Shown piece after piece: positions 15,948 through 53,213 of a DNA stretch of 64,000 nt. The first letter of the stretch is position 1; the number at the start of each line of letters is the position of its first letter. The notes under the pieces were generated by a model. It saw nothing but the letters and a program-made list of their open reading frames with translations. It did no database searches and was not told where the DNA came from. The stretch comes from Prosopocoilus inquinatus (taxonomy: Eukaryota > Arthropoda > Insecta > Coleoptera > Lucanidae), in the NCBI GenBank assembly GCA_036172665.1, contig CM069872.1, forward strand, positions 25,300,001 to 25,364,000. The letters are read 5' to 3'. The translations under genes and the position numbers were made by a program.

Positions 15948-16433
15948 TCGGAAAATACTAATCTTTAAGGCAAAATTGAAAAATGTATCGTCCAATTTGC
16001 AAATTTTTGCACTGGATATTTGATAAGGAGAAGATTCTCCGAGATAAAACGCTCTTTCCTAAAGCGCTCTTAACTTATGGTGTGGGTGTGATTTGCTCTC
16101 ATCTGTAGGTTGTTTTTTGACGGTTTATACATTATATATATATATATATATCCTGAAAAATCCTGAAAAATAAAATAAGAGATATATATATATATATATC
16201 TCTCTTATTTTATTTTTCAGGATTTTTCAGGATATATATATATATATAATGTATAAAGGAGAAGATTCTCCGAGATAAAACGCTCTTTCCTAATCTTTAA
16301 GGCAAAATTGAAAAATGTATCGTCCAATTTGCAAATTTTTGCACTGGATATTTGATAAGGAGAAGATTCTCCGAGATAAAACGCTCTTTCCTAAAGCGCT
16401 CTTAACTTATGGTGTGGGTGTGATTTGCTCTCA

Positions 16434-20877: not shown

Positions 20878-21211
20878 ACTTACATTTAGATACATACACC
20901 GTGTTGAATCGCTTTTCAGACATAGCAACATAGCATGTAAAACTAAATATTTGCAATTATTTGCGCTCTTGTAACTTTTAGAGCAAAATGGCAAACGAAA
21001 ATATTGTTTGGAATATTAAAATGCACTTAATATCAAATTTACAACTTTAAATTTCGCAACCATTTTCTTTTAAAATGGTAAAATCTTCTGAAAAATGCAC
21101 TTAATCTTCTAACAAGTTAGCTATGTTTAACTAGAAGGTTTCCGCGGTCGTCGTCTATCGTTGAATTCCTGGCTTTGGGTTGGAACCGCGTCTCCTGGGA
21201 TTTCTTCTACT

Positions 21212-21253
21212 GCCGACGTTTCGTTCTCCATTGCAGAAGAACTTCATCAGGGC
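21212..21253 (-). ncRNA. Hammerhead ribozyme motif (Penelope type)
   Basis: Reading the minus strand: GCC, then the core CTGATGA, an extra A, a stem II of GTTCT with AGAAC, then GAAA, a minimal stem III (AC with GT) and the cleavage base C, then GGC pairing with the first GCC. All conserved core bases are present. The extra base before stem II and the very short stems I and III suggest weak or dimer-dependent activity. Hammerheads of this kind are known from Penelope-like elements. Confidence 0.6.
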
Positions 21254-21332
21254 GGCTGCTGCTGCTGCTGGTGGTCTCGCTGCTGCTTCTCGTTGCTGAG
21301 ACTGAGATACACTGCCAGTCGCTACAGCTTAC

Positions 21333-21746
21333 CTACTTCATATCCACATCAAATCCAATTACTTATCTGTAACAAAACTTTCAAACTACCTACCCTCCAC
21401 AAAAGACCGTATTTCCTTACAATCCGAAGGCGTGTATCGAATTCCATGTTCCTGTGGACGTGTATACATCGGTGAGACGAAACAATCGGTCAGCACTCGT
21501 GTTTCTGAACATGAACGCTGTACCAGACTACCACAAACGACTGGCTCCGCCCTAGCTGAACGCAAACTAGAAACCGGTCACCAAATCCAATTTTCCGACA
21601 CAAAACTCCTAGCCCGCTCATCTCATTTCTTTAATCGTAAAATCCGTGAATCTATAGAAATTTTCAAACACCCCAATAACTCAAACCGTGATAATGACTT
21701 CTACCTTCACAATACCTTTTGTCATTTTAAAAGAAACTGGCTGTGA
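21333..21746 (+). pseudogene. Penelope-like GIY-YIG endonuclease domain (C-terminal fragment)
   Basis: The frame is open from at least 21333 to the stop at 21746. After SEGVYRIPCSCG comes RVYIGET, the GIY-YIG core, followed by VSTRVSEHERC with the conserved Arg and by LAERKLETGHQ. The CSC pair just before the core matches the zinc-finger-like CCHH motif of Penelope-like endonucleases. This domain nicks DNA at the target site so that reverse transcription can begin. The upstream reverse transcriptase is absent, so the copy is 5'-truncated and inactive, although this domain shows no stop. Confidence 0.85.
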
Positions 21747-22109
21747 AATTTAAGGTTTTAAATATTATATTAGGTGCACTTTAATGTTTTGAACAATATT
21801 TTCCTCTGCCGTTTTACCGTTTTACTTAGTTTTACATGCTATTTTGATATGTCTGAAGAACGATTCAACACATTGTATATCTTTTAGGATGATTAGATTG
21901 TTAATTTTTACATTTTTATGATTTTATTACGATGATTAGGTTGTCTTTAGATCTGTTCAAGTGCTTTTAAGTTGGTAGCGTACTGAAGATGGCAACTTAG
22001 CTGCCGAAATACGTACCTACGAATATAAAATTATTGTGGGGGAGATTAATTTAAATTATTTCTTAAACCACAGTCTCCTTTACTATTTTAGTAAAAATAA
22101 TTAAGAAAA

Positions 22110-22260: not shown

Positions 22261-22374
22261 TTTTTTAAATCAAAAATTTTCATTTTCTTTTGAAGATATT
22301 TCAGAAACAAATAAAGGAATTTTTTTTGACACTATCAGAGATCCCAAAATAGCGCAACTTTTTTTGTATTTATT

Positions 22375-22475
22375 ATAATGAATAGATAAAACAGCGACCT
22401 CCTACGATCGTCTTTTGACCAAACATTGCAGTAGGATAAGCATTTATTATAGTTTATGAGATCCCCATGGTGAGT
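22375..22475 (-). repeat. Old fragment of the hammerhead satellite
   Basis: GATAAAACAGCGACCTCC and AACATTGCAGTAGGATAAGC match the antisense monomer of the 309-bp repeat with many changes. It lacks the ribozyme part. It shows that the family has older members outside the arrays. Confidence 0.6.
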
Positions 22476-28859: not shown

Positions 28860-29320
28860 AGAGCTCCGAAGAAGCAATTGTAAATTGTGCGTATTCTGCA
28901 CAATATAAATTATTTTCAACTATACAGGGTATATTTTTATTAAGTTACACATCAAACTTACGATTTTCTTAACAGAACCCTAATATCTTATCACATCTTT
29001 GGATAGCACTTGAAGAGCTGATGAAAGTGATATAATAACTTATTAATCTATTTTCAGTAGTTCTCGGGTTATTTTGTGTTTCTGAAACTATTCAAATTCA
29101 AACTGCTTGAAGATTATTTTAAATGATAGCAGGTTGAAATTTGGAACAAACATCTGTACTTTCAAGTCATTTACTAATTTCTGTAAGTTGATTAATTAAT
29201 TAATTAATTAATCAACTTACAGAAATTCGCTGTGTGACATTTTTATTCAATTCAGTACATTGTCCAAGAGATTCATAATTCACACTTGTTATTTTTTATC
29301 AAATTTCTAGACGTTACCAT
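28860..29320. repeat. Left arm of a 6-kb inverted repeat pair
   Basis: Matches 34440-35240 in reverse in two blocks. One includes ATTTTCAACTATACAGGGT and TTATTAATCTATTTTCAG; the other includes TAACAAGTGTGAATTAT on its complement. About 5.1 kb separate the arms. Confidence 0.6.
29176..29227. repeat. Perfect 52-bp palindrome
   Basis: AATTTCTGTAAGTTG, a run of ATTA units, then the exact complement. It lies within the left arm above. The matching place in the right arm (34558-34590) is not palindromic. Confidence 0.85.
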
Positions 29321-30542
29321 TCAAAATCAATAAAAATTGTAAAGAAGGTGTCACTGCAATATGGCTAAACTACCACAAGAGACATTCGCGTTGCACCGAT
29401 CGTAGTTTGTCCTAATCTTAATTAGTAAATCTGAATTAGTTAATTCGGCATTATAGTTTGATTAGAGTATTTAACACGAATTATACTATACATTTCTGAA
29501 GCGTACAGGAGCGTAAATCATGCATTCTTCTGAACTATTATAATCGAAAATGTATTAAAATAAATAAATTATTATTATGTTGGAACAAGTAGCGGTGGTT
29601 TGTTTAACACGAATAAATTAGTAGTTGAACTAACATAATTTGAAAACAATACACATTCTCTTTAAAAATTAAAATAACTTAAATTCATAAAATATACAGG
29701 GTGTTAATAAAAAAAAAACTTGGACAAAGTTTGGCAGGTGATAGTACAGTTCAAAACAAGAAAAAAATTCTAATAAACTCATGTACAATACACAATGCAG
29801 AGTGTGCATGCTACACGTTCACCCTTCTAGAAGTTTAATTTTTTACATAAAATTTGGGACAAATAAATTAAATAAAAATTTTCTTTCGCCACCTTACATG
29901 AACTTTCTTAATTTAATTGGAACAGCTTGTATACTTTTACATACTTGGAATCTACAGGTCATTGTGAATCCGAATACGTGTTTTAATTAAGTCGGAATTA
30001 ACATTTTTTTTTAATTCTAAACATTGACAGTATATTTTTTTATTTATTTAAGCACCCTCTTACTTACATTAGCTAATTATATTAATACTAATAATAAAAA
30101 ATATTATAATTCATCGAACAAGAGTTAACTGCTATTATGAATTTCATTTCAATTAACGAAGTTGGTTTAACGTTCCTTTTTTAAAAGAGAAGCCGCAAGT
30201 GAGTTGCACATAAATTGACTATCGGACACAAACGGACTGGATAATGACAAACCATAACAGTAATGATGTCGCTATTTTATATGTTCATCATAACAGTAAC
30301 GTCATACTTACTCGTGACACGTCATCTATACTAATGACGTTTCATTTTAATCGGAAATCAACTAATTCGAGTTAAAAATACGTTGGTGCAACAGCGTTTG
30401 TTTTAACATGAATTATATTTTAATCACGGATTAACTAATACAAATTAATGCATAAATTTCAGCTGTCAGTCATCATATATCAGTCACAAACTCAGCCAAA
30501 AGCGTTTATTAACGTATTGGGATGTACTGGAACATACAAATT
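29321..30542. other. AT-rich stretch with fragments of small repeats
   Basis: ACAGGGTGTTAATAAAAAAA at 29695 looks like a TA-flanked element end. A block at 30350-30470 (TCAACTAATTCGAGTTAAAA, TTTTAATCACGGATTAACTA) recurs at 32213-32300. No gene supported. Confidence 0.4.
30262..30300 (+). repeat. Short fragment of the hammerhead satellite
   Basis: ATGTCGCTATTTTATATGTT followed by CATCAT matches the monomer around the array end called B in the findings. The match is about 30 bases and then stops. Confidence 0.5.
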
Positions 30543-36585: not shown

Positions 36586-36650
36586 AATAATTGAAGATTT
36601 TAGAAAAATTTTGTGCAAATCGTTTTTGATTGCAGCGAGAACCTCGAGCA

Positions 36651-36699
36651 GCCTCTGGACAGCTGTTTCAGCCCTGCTTGGGGCTTCTTCAGCAGAGAC
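36651..36699 (-). ncRNA. Hammerhead ribozyme, array 1
   Basis: All core bases are present on the minus strand. Stem I is GUCUCUG with CAGAGGC (one U-G pair). Stem II and stem III are as described for 51733-51781. Confidence 0.9.
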
Positions 36700-36961
36700 G
36701 TAGCTCGACATTCCCGCTGCAAACAAAAACAACTTGCTCAATTTATTCGCATTTGCGATGTAAGAGTGATGAACAGATAAAATAGCGACATCTTACTATC
36801 GCTTTTTGACCTGACATTGCAGTAGGGTAGACAAATTGAAGCGGGATTTGCTCCTAATAAGTTCCCCATGCAAGGCGGCCATGCTTGCTGTCAAAGCATA
36901 ATGAAAGATTTTAGAAAAATTTTGTGCAAATCGTTTTTGATTGCAGCGAGAACCTCGAGCA

Positions 36962-37010
36962 GCCTCTGGACAGCTGTTTCAGCCCTGCTTGGGGCTTCTT
37001 CAGCAGAGAC
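36962..37010 (-). ncRNA. Hammerhead ribozyme, array 1
   Basis: Same as the copy at 36651-36699, one monomer (311 bases) further on. Confidence 0.9.
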
Positions 37011-37468
37011 GTAGCTCGACATTCCCGCTGCAAACAAAAACAACTTGCCCAATTTATTCGCATTTGCGATGTAAGAGTGATGAACAGATAAAATAGCGAC
37101 ATCTTACAATCGCTTTTTGACCTGACATTGCAGTAGGGTAGACAAATTGAAGCGGGATTTGCTCCTAATAAGTTCCCCATGCAAGGCGGCCATGCTGTCC
37201 AGAGGCTGCTCGAGGTTCTCGCTGCAATCAAAAACGATTTGCACAAAATTTTTCTAAAATCTTTCATTATGCTTTGACAGCAAGCATGGCCGCCTTGCAT
37301 GGGGAACTTATTAGGAGCAAATCCCGCTTCAATTTGTCTACCCTACTGCAATGTCAGGTCAAAAAGCGATAGTAAGATGTCGCTATTTTATCTGTTCATC
37401 ACTCTTACATCGCAAATGCGAATAAATTGGGCAAGTTGTTTTTGTTTGCAGCGGGAATGTCGAGCTAC

Positions 37469-37517
37469 GTCTCTGCTGAAGAAGCCCCAAGCAGGGCTGA
37501 AACAGCTGTCCAGAGGC
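37469..37517 (+). ncRNA. Hammerhead ribozyme, array 1, sense arm
   Basis: Complete motif on the plus strand with the same U-G pair in stem I. A 3' half-motif (TGTCCAGAGG) also lies at 37196, right at the inversion point. Confidence 0.9.
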
Positions 37518-37718
37518 TGCTCGAGGTTCTCGCTGCAATCAAAAACGATTTGCACAAAATTTTTCTAAAATCTTTCATTATGCTTTGACAGCAAGCATGG
37601 CCGCCTTGCATGGGGAACTTATTAGGAGCAAATCCCGCTTCAATTTGTCTACCCTACTGCAATGTCAGGTCAAAAAGCGATAGTAAGATGTCGCTATTTT
37701 ATCTGTTAATAATTGAAG

Positions 37719-38314
37719 AGAAATATAAAACAGTGGCAACCACAGAAACCTTCCAATCAGACTTCAATGTGCTTGTTAATGCATAACAATCGTAACCAGC
37801 ATAACGGTCGTTATGAAGTGCTTTCAGAATAGATCTAAATATTTCATCTCCTGAGAATTATAGTGTTCTATCTACATTTTTATATTACGTGGAAATCGCG
37901 AATATAAATGCAGATAAATGTGTCGGGATGATTAGTTAGATTATTCTAACATTGGCCTTGTTACCTACAATAAATATACTCTGTTCACGTTAAGAATATA
38001 GAGTTGGATTTCCGGATTTTCGGGCTTGTGATTGGTTGAAATTTGAGACGAGTTTACAATTAGTGTTTTTGTTCCGGGGCAGAAATTTACGTTTTTTCGC
38101 CGTTCTCGATCCCGGGAAAAAACGGTCGGGATTTCCCGACTTGACGGGAATAAAAGCTTGGAGTGTAGTTTACTGGGCCTGGCGCGTTAAGATGAGATGT
38201 ATCTTTACTCAGGTATTAAAAACATGGCTCCTCCATGAAGTGTGACAGAGTCCGGCTCAGTCAATGCATTAAGGTGGCTAGCGTGCGCTAGCGGCGTCGC
38301 TGAAACAGCGTTTA
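37719..38314. other. No gene; short palindromic GGGAA motifs
   Basis: GATCCCGGGAAAAAACGGTC, GGGATTTCCCGACTTGACGG and similar motifs lie at 38105-38150, recalling those at 33540-33600. Otherwise unrecognised. Confidence 0.4.
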
Positions 38315-39606
38315 TGTGGGCTGCTGGAAAATTTTCTGGAATCTAGTAGGTCTAGAATTGTTAGCGTTTATCAACTGTCATATTTGAAAAATTTGACGTT
38401 TTTCGCCTATAATTCTATTGACAGTTCCTATTCAAGTAAACTAGTTTTGTTTGTACAGCATTTGAGAAAAAGTAATTTTGTGTAATCATGGAAATCTCGC
38501 GTGAAAATTTTTTGTGCCATGATTTTTTACGATTTCTAATGTGATCTAACGCCGAAACAATGTCTCGATCGGCTTGATTTGCCTTTTGGAGATGAAGCAC
38601 CATCAAAGAGCAGTGTCTATAGTTGGCTTACCGAATTCCAGCGTGGACGTACCTCTCTCAGTGACGAATTTCGTGAAGGTCGTCCATCAACATCTGTTGT
38701 TGCCACTAATGTAGATGTTGTGCGTGAAATGCTTGAGCGAGATCGACATGTGACATACCGTGAGATTCAAGCATCCTTACGAATTGGCATGAAAGCAATA
38801 CAACAGATTTTGCATGATCATTTGAACGTACGAAAGCTTTGCAGTCGTTGGATCCCACACAATTTAACAGAAGCGCAAAAGCAGGGTCGTGTCAAATGGT
38901 GCGAAGAAATGCTCGAGAAATTCAACTGAGGTCGTTCAAATTTAGTTTATAACATCGTTACTGGTGACGAAACGTGGATCTATTCGTACGAGCCAGAAAG
39001 TACAAACAATCTACCGTTTGGGTATTTCAAAATGAACCAAAACCAACAAAAGTTGTCCGTTCACGCAGTGCTGCGAAGCAAATGATTGCTTGTTTCTTTG
39101 GTTTAACTGGACATGTAGCAACCGTGGCTTTAGAGGATCGAAAAACCGTGAATGCTGATTGGTATACTACAATTTGTTTGCCGGAAGTCATCGATCAAAT
39201 AAGAAGAAACAATCGAAATCGACGAATTATTCTCCATCATGACAACGCCAGTTGTCACTCAGCCCGTCAAACAGTTGATTTGTTGTCCAACAAAGATGTT
39301 GAATTAATGACTCATTGTCCATATTCACGTGATTTATCACCTAATGATTTCTTTTTGTTCCCAAATATCAAAAATAAAATGCGTGGTGAGCGATTTTCGT
39401 CGGCTGAAGCAGCGGTTGAAACATTCAGGACACTGGTTTCTGAGGTACCATCTTTAGAATAGAAAACGTGCTTTAGAAATTGGTTCGAGCGTATGCAAAA
39501 GTGTATTGACGTCAAAGGCGAATACTTCGAAAAACAATGATATCGTTTACCAAATTTCATATGCGTTTTATAATACCGTTTCCAGAAACTTTTCCAGCAA
39601 CCCACG
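38315..39606 (+). mobile_element. Full-length mariner element (D,D34D)
   Basis: The left end TGTGGGCTGCTGGAAAATTT and the complement of the right end CGTGGGTTGCTGGAAAAGTT match, with TA on both sides (38313-38314, 39607-39608). At 1292 bp it has the normal mariner size and holds one transposase remnant. Confidence 0.92.
38488..39540 (+). pseudogene. Mariner transposase, inactivated
   Basis: From ATG at 38488 to TGA at 39540 is 351 codons, the usual mariner length. It starts MEISRENF, then after a frameshift reads FGDEAPSKSSVYSWLTEF (helix-turn-helix), HVTYREIQASL and CSRWIPHNL. The catalytic triad is visible in pieces: TGDETW, HHDNASCHSA and SPNDFFLFP, with 34 residues between the second and third Asp. 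The damage is an early frameshift, a stop at 38927, a one-base deletion near 39005 and a stop replacing Trp at 39460. The coding end FEKQ is intact. This makes it a fairly young dead copy. Confidence 0.9.
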
Positions 39607-41640: not shown

Positions 41641-42376
41641 TACAAAAGCTACAAGTTAAGGCTGTATGCCCGCTTAGACCTGAACTCGATTTCAAATGGG
41701 CGTATCACTATTTTTCGCATATATTTAGAAGAAACATACGTTCAACAAGTGTTCCTGCATTTTTACACACAAACGAAAAGAACAGAGAACAGAATTACCA
41801 CCTAAACGTTTTCCTTGTAATTTATGACTCTGCTGTCACTGATCTTTATTTTTGATTGGTTTACATGTCAGTTTGACACACCCACAAGAGAACATTCCGA
41901 CAAGGTCTCCTTCTCATGGGCACCGCCGGCGGCCTTCTGCAAATTTTAAGGGCGACCGCACACTCAGATGAGTAAAATTTTTTATGTAAATTGATGTAAA
42001 TAAAAACGGCGACCTGATCTAACACAGAAACTATGTAAAACTGGGGAAATAAAACTACGTCTGTCGGAAAGTGAAAGTTTATCAGAATTGAAACAACGAT
42101 ACAAAAAAACGCATCACCTGTTCCTCTGTAAATCAATAACGTCATTTTGTTGTTTCATTATCGTTATTATTATCCCTATAAAATTGTTTTTTTTTTTTTA
42201 ATTTTACGTGGATTGCTTTTTTACCTAGACTACACTTCTGTGCACTAAAATTAGGCACAATGAAATATTCCGGTTTAAAGTGGACGTAAAAAAAATTACA
42301 TTATACTGAATAAAACACTAGAACAGTCAAATGAAAACATTAAAAGTGCCTTAAAAACTGAACCCTGATTTAAACG
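41641..42376. other. Unrecognised, with a GGGCGACCGCACAC motif
   Basis: GGGCGACCGCACAC at about 41951 resembles transposon termini but no partner end was found. No gene supported. Confidence 0.35.
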
Positions 42377-43873
42377 TTGGAACAAATATTAATGACTGTG
42401 CTTAAAGTTATTGGAATAGGAATTAATACTGCTCTAATGCACCGACGCAAGGTAGAAAAAAAGTTCACAGAGCAAGTTAATGCGTTAAAAAAGGACATTA
42501 TTAATTGCCCTAAGCACGTATTCGACGATCATTCTGATTGTGACGTTTATTTTTGCACCGGGTTCAAAGATAATGAAATTAATTCAGTTCCAGACTTAGT
42601 AGAATGTGGATTATTTCATGATATTATTGCTTGCTGTAATCATTTGACGCATAATGCACACAGTTTACTTTTAAATATGAACAATAGTGCAGCGGAGACG
42701 TACAATTCAATTGTTTCAAAATTTCTTGGTGGAAGGAGTTAACTTCTCTTTGAAAAATGGCTACGAAGTGAGATGCCACGCTGCCAGCGTTTCTTATAAT
42801 TTCAGTGAGCAATATCACCACCGCATTTATAAGAGAATGGTCGGGAAAAATCCAGGCAAATATACCAAAGTATACAGTGTGCCCGGATACGTAGGGACAG
42901 CATGGGTAACTTCCGTCTTTGAAGAGATAGAGAGATTATTAAAAAAGATGAGAACTTCTGTCTTTGAAGAGAGAGATGATTAAATTAGCAAAAAGGTGCA
43001 GGTTCGAGAGCTCATTAAGAATCCATTTTCAAATATTACTTGTAATGACCAACTTGGTTAAGATTTTACAAAAACCAAAATCTCCTAATTTCTTTTATTT
43101 GCCGTAACTTTTTTGTTACTTAAGAGATCGTGAAAGATGACAATCAATTTTTCTTTTTGGCCGCGGACGCATATTATTACTATGCTCTTTTTGGATCACT
43201 CCATCGTCACAAACCATCAGATCGCTCAATAATTTAAAACAGTTAACTATTCTGCACATGAGTAAGTACCTTTGTATGGTCTGCGATAGCTGTGTTTTCC
43301 ATTAATTTGGAATACAAATCTGTCCTGTGAAACATGTCGAATACATGTCAAATACATAAAAAATGTAATAGTAGTATGAGACAAATTTCAGATTCATTCT
43401 AGACTTGTCAAACAACATGTAGGATATATGTATAATACAAATATGTATGTAATGTAAACGCCCCTTTATTACCAACGTTAACAAGGGCGCGGTTAGCTTG
43501 CAACAGTCTCGATAACAAAGTTTTGTGATCATGGCACTAGCGATTTCTGTTCGTAAAAATAATAAGTTCAGTTTTCCAAAATTTTGAAGAAGTTTCCTTA
43601 CCATATGATATATCATTGCATTCAGAAAAAAAAAAATCTCTTAAAGGGGCCAAAAAATTAGGATATACCAATTTAAAATTTTAAACATATAAAATAGCGA
43701 CATCTTACTATCGCTTTTTGACCTAACATTGCAGTAGGATAGACAAATTGAAGCGGGATTTGCTCCTAATGAGTCCCCCATGCAAGGCGGCCATGCTTGC
43801 TGTCAAAGCATAATGAAAGATTTTAGAAAAATTTTGTGCAAATCGTTTTTGATTGCAGTGAGAACCTCGAGCA

Positions 43874-43922
43874 GCCTCTGGACAGCTGTTTCAGCCCTGC
43901 TTGGGGCTTCTTCAGCAGAAAC
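43874..43922 (-). ncRNA. Hammerhead ribozyme, array 2
   Basis: Complete core. Stem I is GUUUCUG with CAGAGGC: two U-G pairs keep all seven positions paired despite sequence change. Confidence 0.87.
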
Positions 43923-44185
43923 GTAGCTCGACATTCCCACTGCAGACCAAAAACGACTTGCCCAATTTATTCGCAAATGCGATGTAAGAATGATGAACAT
44001 ATAAAATAGCGACATCTTACTATCGCTTTTTGACCTAACATTGCAGTAGGTTAGACAAATTGAAGCGGGATTTGCTCCTAATGAGTCCCCCATGCAAGGC
44101 GGCCATGCTTGCTGTCAAAGCATAATGAAAGATTTTAGAAAAATTTTGTGCAAATCGTTTTTGATTGCAGTGAGAACCTCGAGCA

Positions 44186-44234
44186 GCCTCTGGACAGCTG
44201 TTTCAGCCCTGCTTGGGGCTTCTTCAGCAGAAAC
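44186..44234 (-). ncRNA. Hammerhead ribozyme, array 2
   Basis: Same motif, one monomer (312 bases) from the previous. Confidence 0.87.
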
Positions 44235-44530
44235 GTAGCTCGACATTCCCACTGCAGACCAAAAACGACTTGCCCAATTTATTCGCAATCAAAAACGATT
44301 TGCACAAAATTTTTCTAAAATCTTTCATTATGCTTTGACAGCAAGCATGGCCGCCTTGCATGGGGGACTCATTAGGAGCAAATCCCGCTTCAATTTGTCT
44401 ATCCTACTGCAATGTTAGGTCAAAAAGCGATAGTAAGATGTCGCTATTTTATATGTTCATCATTCTTACATCGCATTTGCGAATAAATTGGGCAAGTCGT
44501 TTTTGGTCTGCAGTGGGAATGTCGAGCTAC

Positions 44531-44579
44531 GTTTCTGCTGAAGAAGCCCCAAGCAGGGCTGAAACAGCTGTCCAGAGGC
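44531..44579 (+). ncRNA. Hammerhead ribozyme, array 2, sense arm
   Basis: Complete motif on the plus strand with the array-2 version of stem I. Confidence 0.87.
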
Positions 44580-45480
44580 TGCTCGAGGTTCTCACTGCAA
44601 TCAAAAACGATTTGCACAAAATTTTTTTAAAATTTTAAGGTTAGGTTAGATTATTGAAAATTTGTAAAAATGGGATTAGTTTTAGTAAGTGTCCATAAAA
44701 GTACTTAAATTATCGTGCAAATTAGTTCAAACCGCATCACAGTAACTTAAGTAACAAAAAAGTTACGGCAAATAAAAGAAATTAGGAGATTTTGGTTTTT
44801 GTAAAATTTTAACCAAGTTGGCCATGACAAGTAATATTTGAAAATGGATTCTTAATGAGCTCTCGAACCTGAACCTTTTTGCTAATTTAATCATCTTTCT
44901 ATTTCTTCAAATACAGAAGTTACTCATGCTGTCCCTACGAAATCCGGGACACTGTATACGTCAAAGTTGCGTAGGAGACGTTTCTACCGAAAATGCAGAG
45001 CACGACTATTTCCTGGGCAAGGCAGAAAAGAAAACAGGCAGCCGAAGCTGAGGGTGACTACGGACTAGTAGAAGAGGTAATCCCTCTTGAAAACTTAGAG
45101 GAAAAATTGGCGTAAAGATTAATTTCTTCTAATTTTTCGGGAAGTATAATTACAAATTGATGAAGAAATTGCGAGAAAACAATTTTCACAGGAATTTGGA
45201 CATAAAGTTGATAACTGCGGATTATTTATATCTAAAGAAATTCCGCATCTTGGAGCTAGTCCTGATGGACTAGTTGGTGAGGATTCTATAATTGAGATCA
45301 AGTGTCCCTATAAGTTAGCGAAGTTAAAAATAACTCCTCAGGAAGCAGCAAAGATGAAAGTTAAGCCCTATTTCTTTTTAGATGGCAATACTGTGACACT
45401 GAAGAAAACACATATTTACTACTATCAGATTGTTAAATGTCTTTTTTTGCTGACAGTTGCATATGCGCTGATTTGCTAAA

Positions 45481-49231: not shown

Positions 49232-49495
49232 GACCCAGTTTTACAATGACGGTTTAACTTTGAGCTGAAGCTTAAATCCTTCACAACAATTGTTAAAATA
49301 ATTGTTGCTAAGGTCCAGTTTTACAATGATGGTTTAACTTTGAGCCGAAGCTTAAATCCTTGACAACAATTGTTGAAATAATCGTCGCTAAGGGTTTAAA
49401 CCTCAGCTCAAAATTGAGCTGCAATTGTAAAACTGGACCTAAGTGTTTAAACCTCAGCTCAAAGTTGAGCTGCAATTGTAAAACTGGACCTTAGG
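49232..49495. repeat. Palindrome made of two direct and two inverted units
   Basis: CCAGTTTTACAATGATGGTT with TTAACTTTGAGC occurs twice in direct order (about 49234 and 49314) and then twice inverted (ending at about 49438 and 49493). The ends resemble GGTCCAGTTTTAC-type MITEs. Confidence 0.7.
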
Positions 49496-50770: not shown

Positions 50771-50996
50771 CAGGCTGGATTAATTTCGATGTCTCTTATG
50801 GGCATCTCCGTAACTATAAGAGACAGAAAAAAACTGGTTGCCAAGTCTCGATCTCTTTTTTGGAGATTAAGTCAATAACGTAAACAAAAATTGGCTATCT
50901 TCTTTTGTTTTCAAGTTATAGACAAAAATTGCCATTTTCGACTTTTCAGAAAAATTTTGTGCAAATCGTTTTTGATTGCAGCGAGAACCTCGAGCA

Positions 50997-51045
50997 GTCT
51001 CTGGACAGCTGTTTCAGCCCTGCTTGGGGCTTCTTCAGCAGAGAC
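50997..51045 (-). ncRNA. Hammerhead ribozyme, array 3, antisense arm
   Basis: Complete motif with the fully Watson-Crick stem I (GUCUCUG with CAGAGAC). Confidence 0.92.
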
Positions 51046-51424
51046 GTAGCTCGACATTCCCGCTGCAAACAAAAACGACTTGCCCAATTTATTCGCATTT
51101 GCGATGTAAGAGTGATGAACAGATAAAATAGCGACATCTTACAATCGCTTTTTGACCTGACATTGCAGTAGGGTAGACAAATTGAAGCGGGATTTGCTCC
51201 TAATAAGTTCCCCATGCAAGGCGGCCATGCTTGCTGTCAAGGATAATGAAAATTTTAGAAAAATTTTGTGCAAATCGTTTTTGATTGCAGCGAGAACCTC
51301 GAGCAGTCTCTGGACAACTGTTTCGAGCTAAGATGTCGCTATTTTATCTGTTCATCACTCTTACATCGCAAATGCGAATAAATTGGGCAAGTCGTTTTTG
51401 TTTGCAGCGGGAATGTCGAGCTAC

Positions 51425-51472
51425 GTCTCTGCTGAAGAAGCCCAAGCAGGGCTGAAACAGCTGTCCAGAGAC
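51425..51472 (+). ncRNA. Hammerhead ribozyme, array 3
   Basis: Complete motif. The stem II loop is one base shorter (AAGCA), which leaves all stems intact. Confidence 0.92.
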
Positions 51473-51732
51473 TGCTCGAGGTTCTCGCTGCAATCAAAAA
51501 CGATTTGCACAAAATTTTTCTAAAATTTTCATTATCCTTGACAGCAAGCATGGCCGCCTTGCATGGGGAACTTATTAGGAGCAAATCCCGCTTCAATTTG
51601 TCTACCCTACTGCAATGTCAGGTCAAAAAGCGATTGTAAGATGTCGCTATTTTATCTGTTCATCACTCTTACATCGCAAATGCGAATAAATTGGGCAAGT
51701 CGTTTTTGTTTGCAGCGGGAATGTCGAGCTAC

Positions 51733-51781
51733 GTCTCTGCTGAAGAAGCCCCAAGCAGGGCTGAAACAGCTGTCCAGAGAC
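51733..51781 (+). ncRNA. Hammerhead ribozyme, array 3 (reference copy)
   Basis: Bases 51733-51739 (GTCTCTG) pair with 51775-51781 (CAGAGAC) as stem I. 51740-51746 is the core CTGAAGA. 51747-51751 (AGCCC) pairs with 51758-51762 (GGGCT) as stem II, loop CAAGCA. 51763-51766 is GAAA. 51766-51768 (ACA) pairs with 51771-51773 (TGT) as stem III, loop GC. 51774 is the C after GU where cleavage occurs, before 51775. Position 7 of the core is A, which is allowed because it is the variable position. Confidence 0.94.
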
Positions 51782-52041
51782 TGCTCGAGGTTCTCGCTGC
51801 AATCAAAAACGATTTGCACAAAATTTTTCTAAAATTTTCATTATCCTTGACAGCAAGCATGGCCGCCTTGCATGGGGAACTTATTAGGAGCAAATCCCGC
51901 TTCAATTTGTCTACCCTACTGCAATGTCAGGTCAAAAAGCGATTGTAAGATGTCGCTATTTTATCTGTTCATCACTCTTACATCGCAAATGCGAATAAAT
52001 TGGGCAAGTCGTTTTTGTTTGCAGCGGGAATGTCGAGCTAC

Positions 52042-52090
52042 GTCTCTGCTGAAGAAGCCCCAAGCAGGGCTGAAACAGCTGTCCAGAGAC
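52042..52090 (+). ncRNA. Hammerhead ribozyme, array 3
   Basis: Same sequence as 51733-51781, 309 bases downstream. Confidence 0.93.
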
Positions 52091-52350
52091 TGCTCGAGGT
52101 TCTCGCTGCAATCAAAAACGATTTGCACAAAATTTTTCTAAAATTTTCATTATCCTTGACAGCAAGCATGGCCGCCTTGCATGGGGAACTTATTAGGAGC
52201 AAATCCCGCTTCAATTTGTCTACCCTACTGCAATGTCAGGTCAAAAAGCGATTGTAAGATGTCGCTATTTTATCTGTTCATCACTCTTACATCGCAAATG
52301 CGAATAAATTGGGCAAGTCGTTTTTGTTTGCAGCGGGAATGTCGAGCTAC

Positions 52351-52399
52351 GTCTCTGCTGAAGAAGCCCCAAGCAGGGCTGAAACAGCTGTCCAGAGAC
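52351..52399 (+). ncRNA. Hammerhead ribozyme, array 3
   Basis: Same sequence again, 309 bases downstream of the previous copy. It is the last complete one before the array end. Confidence 0.93.
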
Positions 52400-53213
52400 T
52401 GCTCGAGGTTCTCGCTGCAATCAAAAACGATTTGCACAAAATTTTTCTAAAATTTTCATTATCCTTGACAGCAAGCATGGTCGCCTTGCATGGGGAACTT
52501 ATTAGGAGCAAATCCCGCTTCAATTTGTCTACCCTACTGCAATGTCAGGTCAAAAAGCGATTGTAAGATGTCGCTATTTTATCTGTTTCGACTTTTCGTT
52601 TTTCGTCATATCTCGTTTATTTCAAGAGATATTAAAAAACTGCTTGAACATTATTGGAACACTTTTTGAATTACAATTCAATGGTGTAGTTGATTTTTTA
52701 ATATTTACTTAAATTTTGGAGATATAACATAAGTTATGTTTTTTAAATGAAAATCATAGAAGGCCTTATTAAATAGAGATTTTTTTTTTCTGTTTTCAAA
52801 AATATATACTTTGTTGGGTTTATTTCTTATCATTCATAGGAAAAACTGTTTTTATTAAATATTAACGAACTTACAAACGTTTTGACAGTTTTGCCCGCGT
52901 AAAGAATTTCATATTCACTTTATTTTACAAAATTCCGTTTGAGAAATGTAGCACCCATCGGGACCGATTTGCACACAAATCTAGTTTGATACTTGTTCGA
53001 TTTTGTTTATATTTTACTGTTTGTGTGTTTGTTTGTTTTTGTTTTTTGTGTTTTTAATAAAATATAACTCAAGAGAAACAAAAAAAAAAGAAACCTTAAT
53101 TTAGTTCTAATTTAGTTATTATTACCTTTATGTTTATCCGGACAACTCGTATTTTAGTTTAAAATCATGTTACCTTCTCGTTTCTCCTGATAACTTGTTT
53201 ATTTAGATTTTTT

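Follow-up and report, generated by a model that had tools for sequence, protein, structure and literature searches.

In a stretch of 64,000 nucleotides from the beetle Prosopocoilus inquinatus (Lucanidae; GenBank assembly GCA_036172665.1, contig CM069872.1, positions 25,300,001 to 25,364,000 of the forward strand; hereafter the window, in which all positions are counted), we found five insertions of a non-coding repeat with a unit of 309–312 nt. Three of them were long, head-to-head, double-armed arrays with a type I hammerhead ribozyme motif in every complete unit. From its sequence features, assignment of the repeat to the retrozyme family was well supported. The explanation that we favored, and held to be modestly probable, was that the repeat is a non-autonomous, non-coding metazoan-type retrozyme without long terminal repeats (non-LTR retrozyme), and that its RNA, either circular or multimeric and uncut, would be reverse-transcribed from both nicked strands of the target at two internal sites. 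A first-pass annotation of the region 50948–52587 had described a tandem repeat with a complete hammerhead in each monomer; the hammerhead was indeed present in every complete unit, whereas the arrays were not simple tandem arrays but double-arm insertions.

Hammerhead Motifs in the Three Arrays

Tandem Repeats Finder gave periods of 311, 312, and 309 at 36587–37196, 43684–44288, and 51329–52587, respectively. A plain scan for the core (CTGANGA followed by GAAA) found 21 places in the window, 11 inside the arrays and 10 outside. When a strict type I descriptor was applied (stem I of at least 5 bp, CUGANGA, stem II of at least 4 bp, GAA, stem III of at least 3 bp, and UH), all 11 array copies (six on the plus strand and five on the minus strand) were retained and none of the 10 core matches elsewhere, and 200 Markov-1 sequences of 64 kb gave two matches in total on both strands. 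Each of the 11 copies had the conserved core CUGANGA/GAA/UH and three stems, with the open end at stem I. Eleven hammerheads in three arrays was also the number given in the first-pass annotation, and its letters were verified: stem I GTCTCTG/CAGAGAC, core CTGAAGA and GAA, stem II AGCCC/GGGCT, stem III ACA/TGT, and the predicted cut at 51774/51775 between GTC and CAGAGAC. Five of the hammerheads were in the region 50948–52587, four on the plus strand and one (50997–51045) on the minus strand.

The hammerhead letters were constant across the 11 copies, except for changes that kept G-U pairing and one loop base. Stem I read CAGAGGC in the 36.6-kb array and GTTTCTG/CAGAGGC in the 43.7-kb array, and in both the pairing was kept via G-U. 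Stem I contained an internal loop, and loop II was of 6 nt, with the exception of the copy at 51425–51472 (5 nt). An antisense hammerhead was ruled out, as there were no antisense core matches in the three units.

Covariance models gave a less uniform picture. The scan of the whole window with Rfam at E ≤ 1 had no hammerhead row, while a scan of short stretches gave a match to RF00163 over the whole model at 51734–51780 (27.4 bits, E = 4.3 × 10^-5), below the gathering score of 34. The same score was obtained at 50998–51044, where one of the five copies in the stretch matched. There was no match to RF00163 in short scans of the 36.6-kb and 43.7-kb arrays (three copies each), and one copy in the scan of one of these two arrays matched HH9 weakly (16.3 bits, E = 0.8). 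The covariance-model check proposed earlier thus found a match over the full model, but at 27.4 bits against 34 and with two arrays unmatched. The motif was far beyond chance by the descriptor, yet below the curated threshold of Rfam.

Insertions and Target-site Duplications

The insertions, their target-site duplications (TSDs), and the hammerheads located with the descriptor were as follows.

50948–52585: I51, unit of 309 nt; inverted arm 50948–51316 (minus strand), filler and junction to 51328, forward arm 51329–52585 (plus strand)
50936–50947: left TSD of I51, 12 bp
52586–52597: right TSD of I51, 12 bp
50997–51045, minus strand: hammerhead in the inverted arm of I51, also RF00163 at 27.4 bits
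51425–51472, plus strand: hammerhead in I51, loop II one base short, cut after 51465
51733–51781, plus strand: hammerhead in I51, cut after 51774, also RF00163
52042–52090, plus strand: hammerhead in I51, cut after 52083
52351–52399, plus strand: hammerhead in I51, cut after 52392
36598–37707: I37, unit of 311 nt; inverted arm 36598–37196 (minus strand), forward arm 37194–37707 (plus strand)
36586–36597: left TSD of I37, 12 bp
37708–37719: right TSD of I37, 12 bp
36651–36699, minus strand: hammerhead in I37
36962–37010, minus strand: hammerhead in I37
37469–37517, plus strand: hammerhead in I37
43685–44625: I43, unit of 312 nt, reversed in the window; A-arm 43685–44288 (minus strand), B-arm 44285–44625 (plus strand)
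43672–43684: left TSD of I43, 13 bp
44626–44638: right TSD of I43, 13 bp
43874–43922, minus strand: hammerhead in I43
44186–44234, minus strand: hammerhead in I43
44531–44579, plus strand: hammerhead in I43
30264–30288, plus strand: I30, 25-bp 5'-truncated copy without hammerhead; 11-bp TSD at 30253–30263 and 30289–30299
22378–22441, minus strand: I22, 5'-truncated copy without hammerhead; 10-bp TSD at 22368–22377 and 22442–22451

Searching the window with a profile of the unit (E ≤ 1) found only I30 and I22 beyond the three arrays, and I22 was old (82% identity over 62 bases). All five insertions had exact TSDs of 10–13 bp, with an AT content of 84% against 67% for the window. Among random boundary pairs from the same window, a repeat of at least 12 bp was found in 1 of 600 and of at least 10 bp in 3 of 600. 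A narrower test with 3000 pairs gave p = 0.0007–0.0017 for four insertions and p = 0.007 for I43, for which the small slack exposed only 8 of the 13 TSD bases. Duplication of one array was excluded by the differing flanks and TSDs.

The three units of 309, 311, and 312 nt, each with a type I hammerhead, were within the size of about 170–400 nt expected for metazoan non-LTR retrozymes, and their GC content (0.433–0.441) was below the approximately 45% of this class, with TSDs longer than 4 bp. The unit had no long open reading frame (ORF): the longest stop-free run in a 3-mer was 96–103 amino acids in the three units, and a 143-amino-acid stop-to-stop frame spanned the junction of I37. On these points the retrozyme reading of the first-pass annotation stood, with the arrays now described as head-to-head double-arm insertions. 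An LTR arrangement was not seen in the insertions. Pattern scans of viral contigs and of bacterial and archaeal genomes, sets from which records of the window's own genome may be missing, gave no matches. At RNA positions 207–219 or thereabouts, a small hairpin that read CGCAAATGCG in I37 and I51 read CGCATTTGCG, the exact reverse complement, in I43, as though template switching had inverted this short segment.

Two Fixed Ends Away from the Ribozyme Cut

RNA positions are numbered from the predicted ribozyme cut in the unit (309–312 nt) of the insertion concerned. The three long insertions were all composed of an inverted arm, a junction, and a forward arm, I43 being the opposite way round in the window. 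One outer end, site A, was at RNA 193, 196, and 197 in the long insertions and 200 in I30, as computed, and at 198, as judged by eye, in the diverged I22; site A was therefore used in all five insertions, including the two truncated ones. The other outer end, site B, was at RNA 53, 56, and 60 in the three long insertions, so that A and B were about 140 nt apart. None of the eight ends was at the ribozyme cut.

All six arms were longer than one unit. In I37 the inverted arm was 599 nt (1.93 laps) and the forward arm 514 nt (1.65 laps); in I43 the A-arm was 604 nt (1.94 laps) and the B-arm 341 nt (1.09 laps); and in I51 the inverted arm was 369 nt (1.19 laps) and the forward arm 1257 nt (4.07 laps). 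Cut-site strings were read through 13 times, and a linear cut monomer as the template was excluded by these 13 traversals and by the absence of ends at the cut. The arms met at differing positions of the unit and without a palindrome, with a 3-nt microhomology in I37, one of 4 nt in I43, and, in I51, a short filler. This head-to-head architecture, with fixed ends off the cut site, bears on how the arrays were formed.

Target Homology and Openness at the Two Sites

For each end, eight target bases, at B those that precede the inverted arm, were compared with the complement of the RNA beyond the start, with the boundaries set by the longest possible TSD, a choice that favors matches. At B, 17 of 24 bases in three insertions matched (7.5 expected, p = 0.00012), and at A, 17 of 40 bases in five insertions (11.0 expected, p = 0.025); the latter result was weak, because the full-TSD boundaries favor matches. 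With other boundaries in three insertions, B had 15 of 24 matches (p = 0.0014) and A had 9 of 24 (p = 0.13). In the predicted folds, the openness of a 12-nt window at A ranked 2 of 309, 41 of 311, and 11 of 312, and the unpaired fraction in windows at B was 0.47–0.60, 0.76–0.89, and 0.60–0.87 against unit means of 0.34–0.36. In the minimum-energy circles, B was paired in an AU hairpin in the unit of I51 (u51) and A was partly paired in that of I37 (u37).

An identical-looking product would be obtained with a mover of the long interspersed nuclear element (LINE) type, by target-primed reverse transcription at A and subsequent top-strand twin priming at B via microhomology. Twin priming predicts both the TSDs of 10–13 bp found in all five insertions and the 17 of 24 matches at B. 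The inversions produced by twin priming of L1 share with the present insertions an inverted 5' part, a TSD, and microhomology at the internal priming site, and differ in having a linear poly(A) RNA template and in that the inversion is found in a minority of insertions. Twin priming is likewise a minority outcome among LINE insertions in general, whereas here all three long insertions were double-armed with both ends fixed, no A-rich tail was seen at A, and the window contained a decayed fragment of Penelope-like appearance that has an inverted arm (see below). In favor of a LINE-type mover, LINE-like TSDs of 15 bp are on record for Nematostella repeats in passages of PMC4918200. Taking both sides together, we considered a LINE-type mover to be somewhat unlikely.

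Probable Single Template per Insertion

Twenty alignment columns distinguished the insertions from one another, and 16 of these showed the same state in every lap of both arms of a given insertion; this count leaves out a string of gaps and the gaps in columns 154, 168, and 184 that arose from four misplaced junction-filler bases in one lap of I51 (I51_R_0). One lap deviated in the diagnostic columns 74, 154, 184, and 228. At the edge of I43, the aligned pieces ran into bases derived from the target (columns 67 and 74), and they also included junction bases (columns 227 and 228), so that the deviations in columns 74 and 228 corresponded to the edge and the junction of I43. Outside the edge and junction columns, lap-private changes were found in columns 103, 243, and 299, in addition to the diagnostic columns 154 and 184. 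Among piece pairs with at least 100 shared bases, there were 0.08–0.51 substitutions per 100 nt within insertions (23 pairs) and 1.59–5.13 between insertions (52 pairs). The agreement of laps and arms would be expected from rolling copying of one closed unit, with a homogeneous uncut multimer as the less likely template.

The second of these templates, a linear multimeric transcript left uncut because the hammerhead is poor or acts later, is compatible with the other explanations, and the competing helix in the minimum-energy fold of the single core (see below) speaks for it. However, a transcript made from an old array would show the differences among that array's units, whereas concordance in 16 of 20 diagnostic columns is what one circle would give, and the hammerhead letters were nearly unchanged in 11 copies. 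We therefore regarded copying from an uncut linear multimer as an unlikely origin of the arms.

Predicted Folding of the Ribozyme and the Unit

The minimum-energy fold of the 49-nt core was a competing helix (-20.0 kcal/mol), and the hammerhead had -15.1 kcal/mol when computed without stem III, because the folding program forbids a 2-nt loop. When two cores were co-folded, the prediction was a double hammerhead whose stem III of 8 bp is formed by the palindrome ACAGCUGU, at -43.9 kcal/mol compared with twice -20.0 kcal/mol. From these energies, a lone hammerhead may be weak; multimers would cut themselves and a single circle may stay closed. According to parts of PMC7229834, axolotl hammerheads whose stem III is weak act as dimers, a form that vertebrate ones need, whereas most hammerheads of invertebrate retrozymes cleave efficiently; the last of these statements speaks against a need for pairs.

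Stem I was extended as a long rod (RNA 1–46 with 229–276) in the predicted circles, which had energies of -112 to -115 kcal/mol, 62–64% of bases paired, and z scores of -7.6 to -9.5 against 100 mononucleotide shuffles of each unit. The antisense circle was likewise stable in prediction (-89 to -97 kcal/mol). Of the 97 pairs predicted, seven differed among the three units: one change was compensatory (G-C to A-U at RNA 22/251), four were one-sided, and two pairs were broken, in a fold that contained the competing helix in place of stem III.

That the hammerhead is inactive, its shape being retained through the youth of the insertions, is another proposal that would be compatible with the others. 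The Rfam score under the gathering threshold, the two of three arrays not listed, and the competing fold are in its favor, but the core bases were intact in 11 copies and the variation among the 97 pairs was limited to the seven described above. An inactive hammerhead appeared to us quite improbable.

Joining of the Arms

If the inverted arm were produced by self-priming or template switching of a single complementary DNA (cDNA), no second start on the other strand of the target would be needed. All three long insertions had inverted arms, and the unit was highly self-complementary, with the stable antisense circle described above. A foldback, however, would fix the junction and not the outer end, whereas the second arm had its outer end fixed at B, where 17 of 24 adjoining target bases matched, and the junctions varied in unit position, with microhomology or filler and no palindrome. 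This route was thus considered very improbable. Growth as an ordinary satellite within the DNA, whether by unequal crossing-over or by rolling circle, with the hammerhead as a passenger, would account for tandem units of high identity but was rejected as hardly tenable because of the TSDs in five of five insertions, the two fixed ends, the inverted arm in three of three arrays, and the differing flanks, the boundaries and TSDs arguing strongly against it.

Proposed Mechanism and Candidate Mover

Double-ended internal initiation on a closed unit was the best fit to the insertions, judging from three double-armed cases. In the proposed course of events, an array would be transcribed, and its type I hammerheads, perhaps paired via the palindromic stem III, would cut the transcript into units of 309–312 nt, which a host ligase would close into circles. 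A Penelope-like endonuclease/reverse transcriptase would make nicks 10–13 nt apart in the two strands of an AT-rich target, and each 3' end of the target would prime reverse transcription of the circle, one at A (RNA 193–200) and the other at B (RNA 53–60). Each cDNA would make one to four laps, crossing the closed cut site, and the two would be joined at their stopping points through filler or a microhomology of 3–4 nt; the result would be an array of two arms, head to head, within a TSD. If one arm were short or absent, this would give a 5'-truncated copy ending at A.

The involvement of a Penelope-like element (PLE) was considered from the insertion shape and from the following fragment.

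20894–22040, plus strand: decayed fragment of Penelope-like appearance, with inverted repeats and an ORF at 21306–21746

Its inverted arms were at 20894–20949 and 21823–21878 (56 nt, 88%) and at 20985–21083 and 21717–21815 (99 nt, 82%). A motif in the ORF resembled the Penelope-type GIY-YIG motif, but searches against Pfam and PDB gave no support for GIY-YIG, and the predicted structure was unusable (predicted local distance difference test, pLDDT, 29.8). The fragment is possibly kin of the mover. The link to PLEs rests on the insertion shape, because the ORF gained no database support. The best repeat found as a TSD for this fragment was 9 bp among very many boundary pairs and was unpersuasive, and hammerhead-like cores in it at 21250 (minus strand) and 21983 (plus strand) fitted neither the descriptor nor Rfam.

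Passages of PMC11167929 report that the purified Penelope-like protein of Anolis cleaves and extends both target strands without strand difference, prefers AT-rich sites, and initiates within the RNA, at a pair of adjacent positions that have no homology to the DNA being cut; in vitro it used mainly unprocessed RNA, and hammerhead cleavage was not needed. According to parts of PMC3846280, Penelope inserts with inverted pseudo-LTRs (pLTRs), the head-to-head form being the most frequent inverted arrangement, with TSDs of 8–10 bp, and the inversions are ascribed there to self-priming on an antisense template. Parts of PMC7229834 treat PLEs as strong candidates for the mover of retrozymes in animals, leaving open the route and the enzyme by which these return to DNA. 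The hallmarks of a Penelope mover, namely a head-to-head inverted arm, a TSD of about 10 bp, and an internal start, were found in all three long insertions. The start behavior of the Anolis protein (adjacent starts, the same on both strands, without target homology) was not reproduced, as A and B were about 140 nt apart and B had 17 of 24 matches. The unit, without a long ORF, encoded no telomerase-like reverse transcriptase with GIY-YIG, and was classed from its sequence as possibly moved by a PLE and not as a PLE.

Several points weigh against double-ended initiation by a Penelope-like enzyme on a hammerhead-derived circle. The RF00163 score is under the Rfam cut-off, which is a library cut-off and not a structural feature, and the predicted minimum-energy fold of a single core is not a hammerhead. 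One lap is discordant in 4 of the 20 diagnostic columns. The alternative boundaries weaken the priming tests, with A at p = 0.13, and the predicted openness is uneven, with pairing at B in u51 and partial pairing at A in u37. The GIY-YIG assignment is without database support, and one start site per arm together with the target homology at B would suit L1-like twin priming better. The head-to-head repeats in PMC3846280 are explained, in the parts concerned, by self-priming and not by priming on both strands. Finally, the data come from one window and five insertions only, three of them double-armed.

A wider proposal is that animal retrozymes are circular RNAs moved by Penelope: a PLE protein would cut the target on both strands and initiate cDNA at two fixed sites of a single covalently closed ribozyme circle, with several laps made by each strand, every array being a head-to-head record of rolling-circle copying in which the cut is never an end. 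We put this forward tentatively, as having rather less than an even chance of being correct.

Comparison with Known Systems

Metazoan non-LTR retrozymes, as described in parts of Cervera and de la Pena (2020; PMC7229834), share with the present repeat a unit of about 170–400 nt with one type I hammerhead each, low GC, tandem copies, TSDs longer than 4 bp, and a highly self-paired predicted circle. In contrast, the head-to-head double arms and the two fixed ends were found here, whereas the main text of that paper never mentions inverted, twin, or orientation. PLEs, as covered in parts of PMC11167929 and PMC3846280, share an inverted arm joined head-to-head, TSDs close to 10 bp in AT-rich targets, reverse transcription that starts internally, and a hammerhead cut that is not at the insertion ends. 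The present repeat differs from them in having no long ORF, a 309-nt unit, a palindromic 3-bp stem III, multi-lap arms, start sites about 140 nt apart rather than adjacent, and target homology at B. The pDo500 satellite of Dolichopoda cave crickets (parts of PMC2837043) is likewise a satellite repeat from an insect and contains a type I hammerhead, for which double-hammerhead cleavage has been proposed and compensatory stem changes have been described; unlike the present analysis, the main text of that paper has no inverted or retrotransposition wording, and it includes no search for TSDs. In the open-licence literature searched, we found no account of retrozymes inserted head-to-head. The fixed ends off the cut, the double arms, and the multi-lap cDNAs make the question of the mover countable in any genome with such arrays.

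Other Features of the Window

At 38540–39462 there was a broken mariner-type transposase in two reading frames, with matches to HTH_32, HTH_Tnp_Tc3_2, Transposase_1, and DDE_3 (E below 0.001, all under the Pfam cut-offs). An ORF at 42374–42742 had a weak match to a Mutator-like transposase (E = 0.0037, 16.7 bits against a cut-off of 26.5). Sub-threshold microRNA matches in the Rfam scans reflected long hairpins. Long AT-rich hairpins were located at 16150–16233 and 29171–29235, with microRNA-precursor scores well under the family thresholds, and are perhaps small inverted-repeat transposons. Two adjoining tandem repeats at 49235–49495, with periods of 80 and 51, overlapped sub-threshold hairpin matches.

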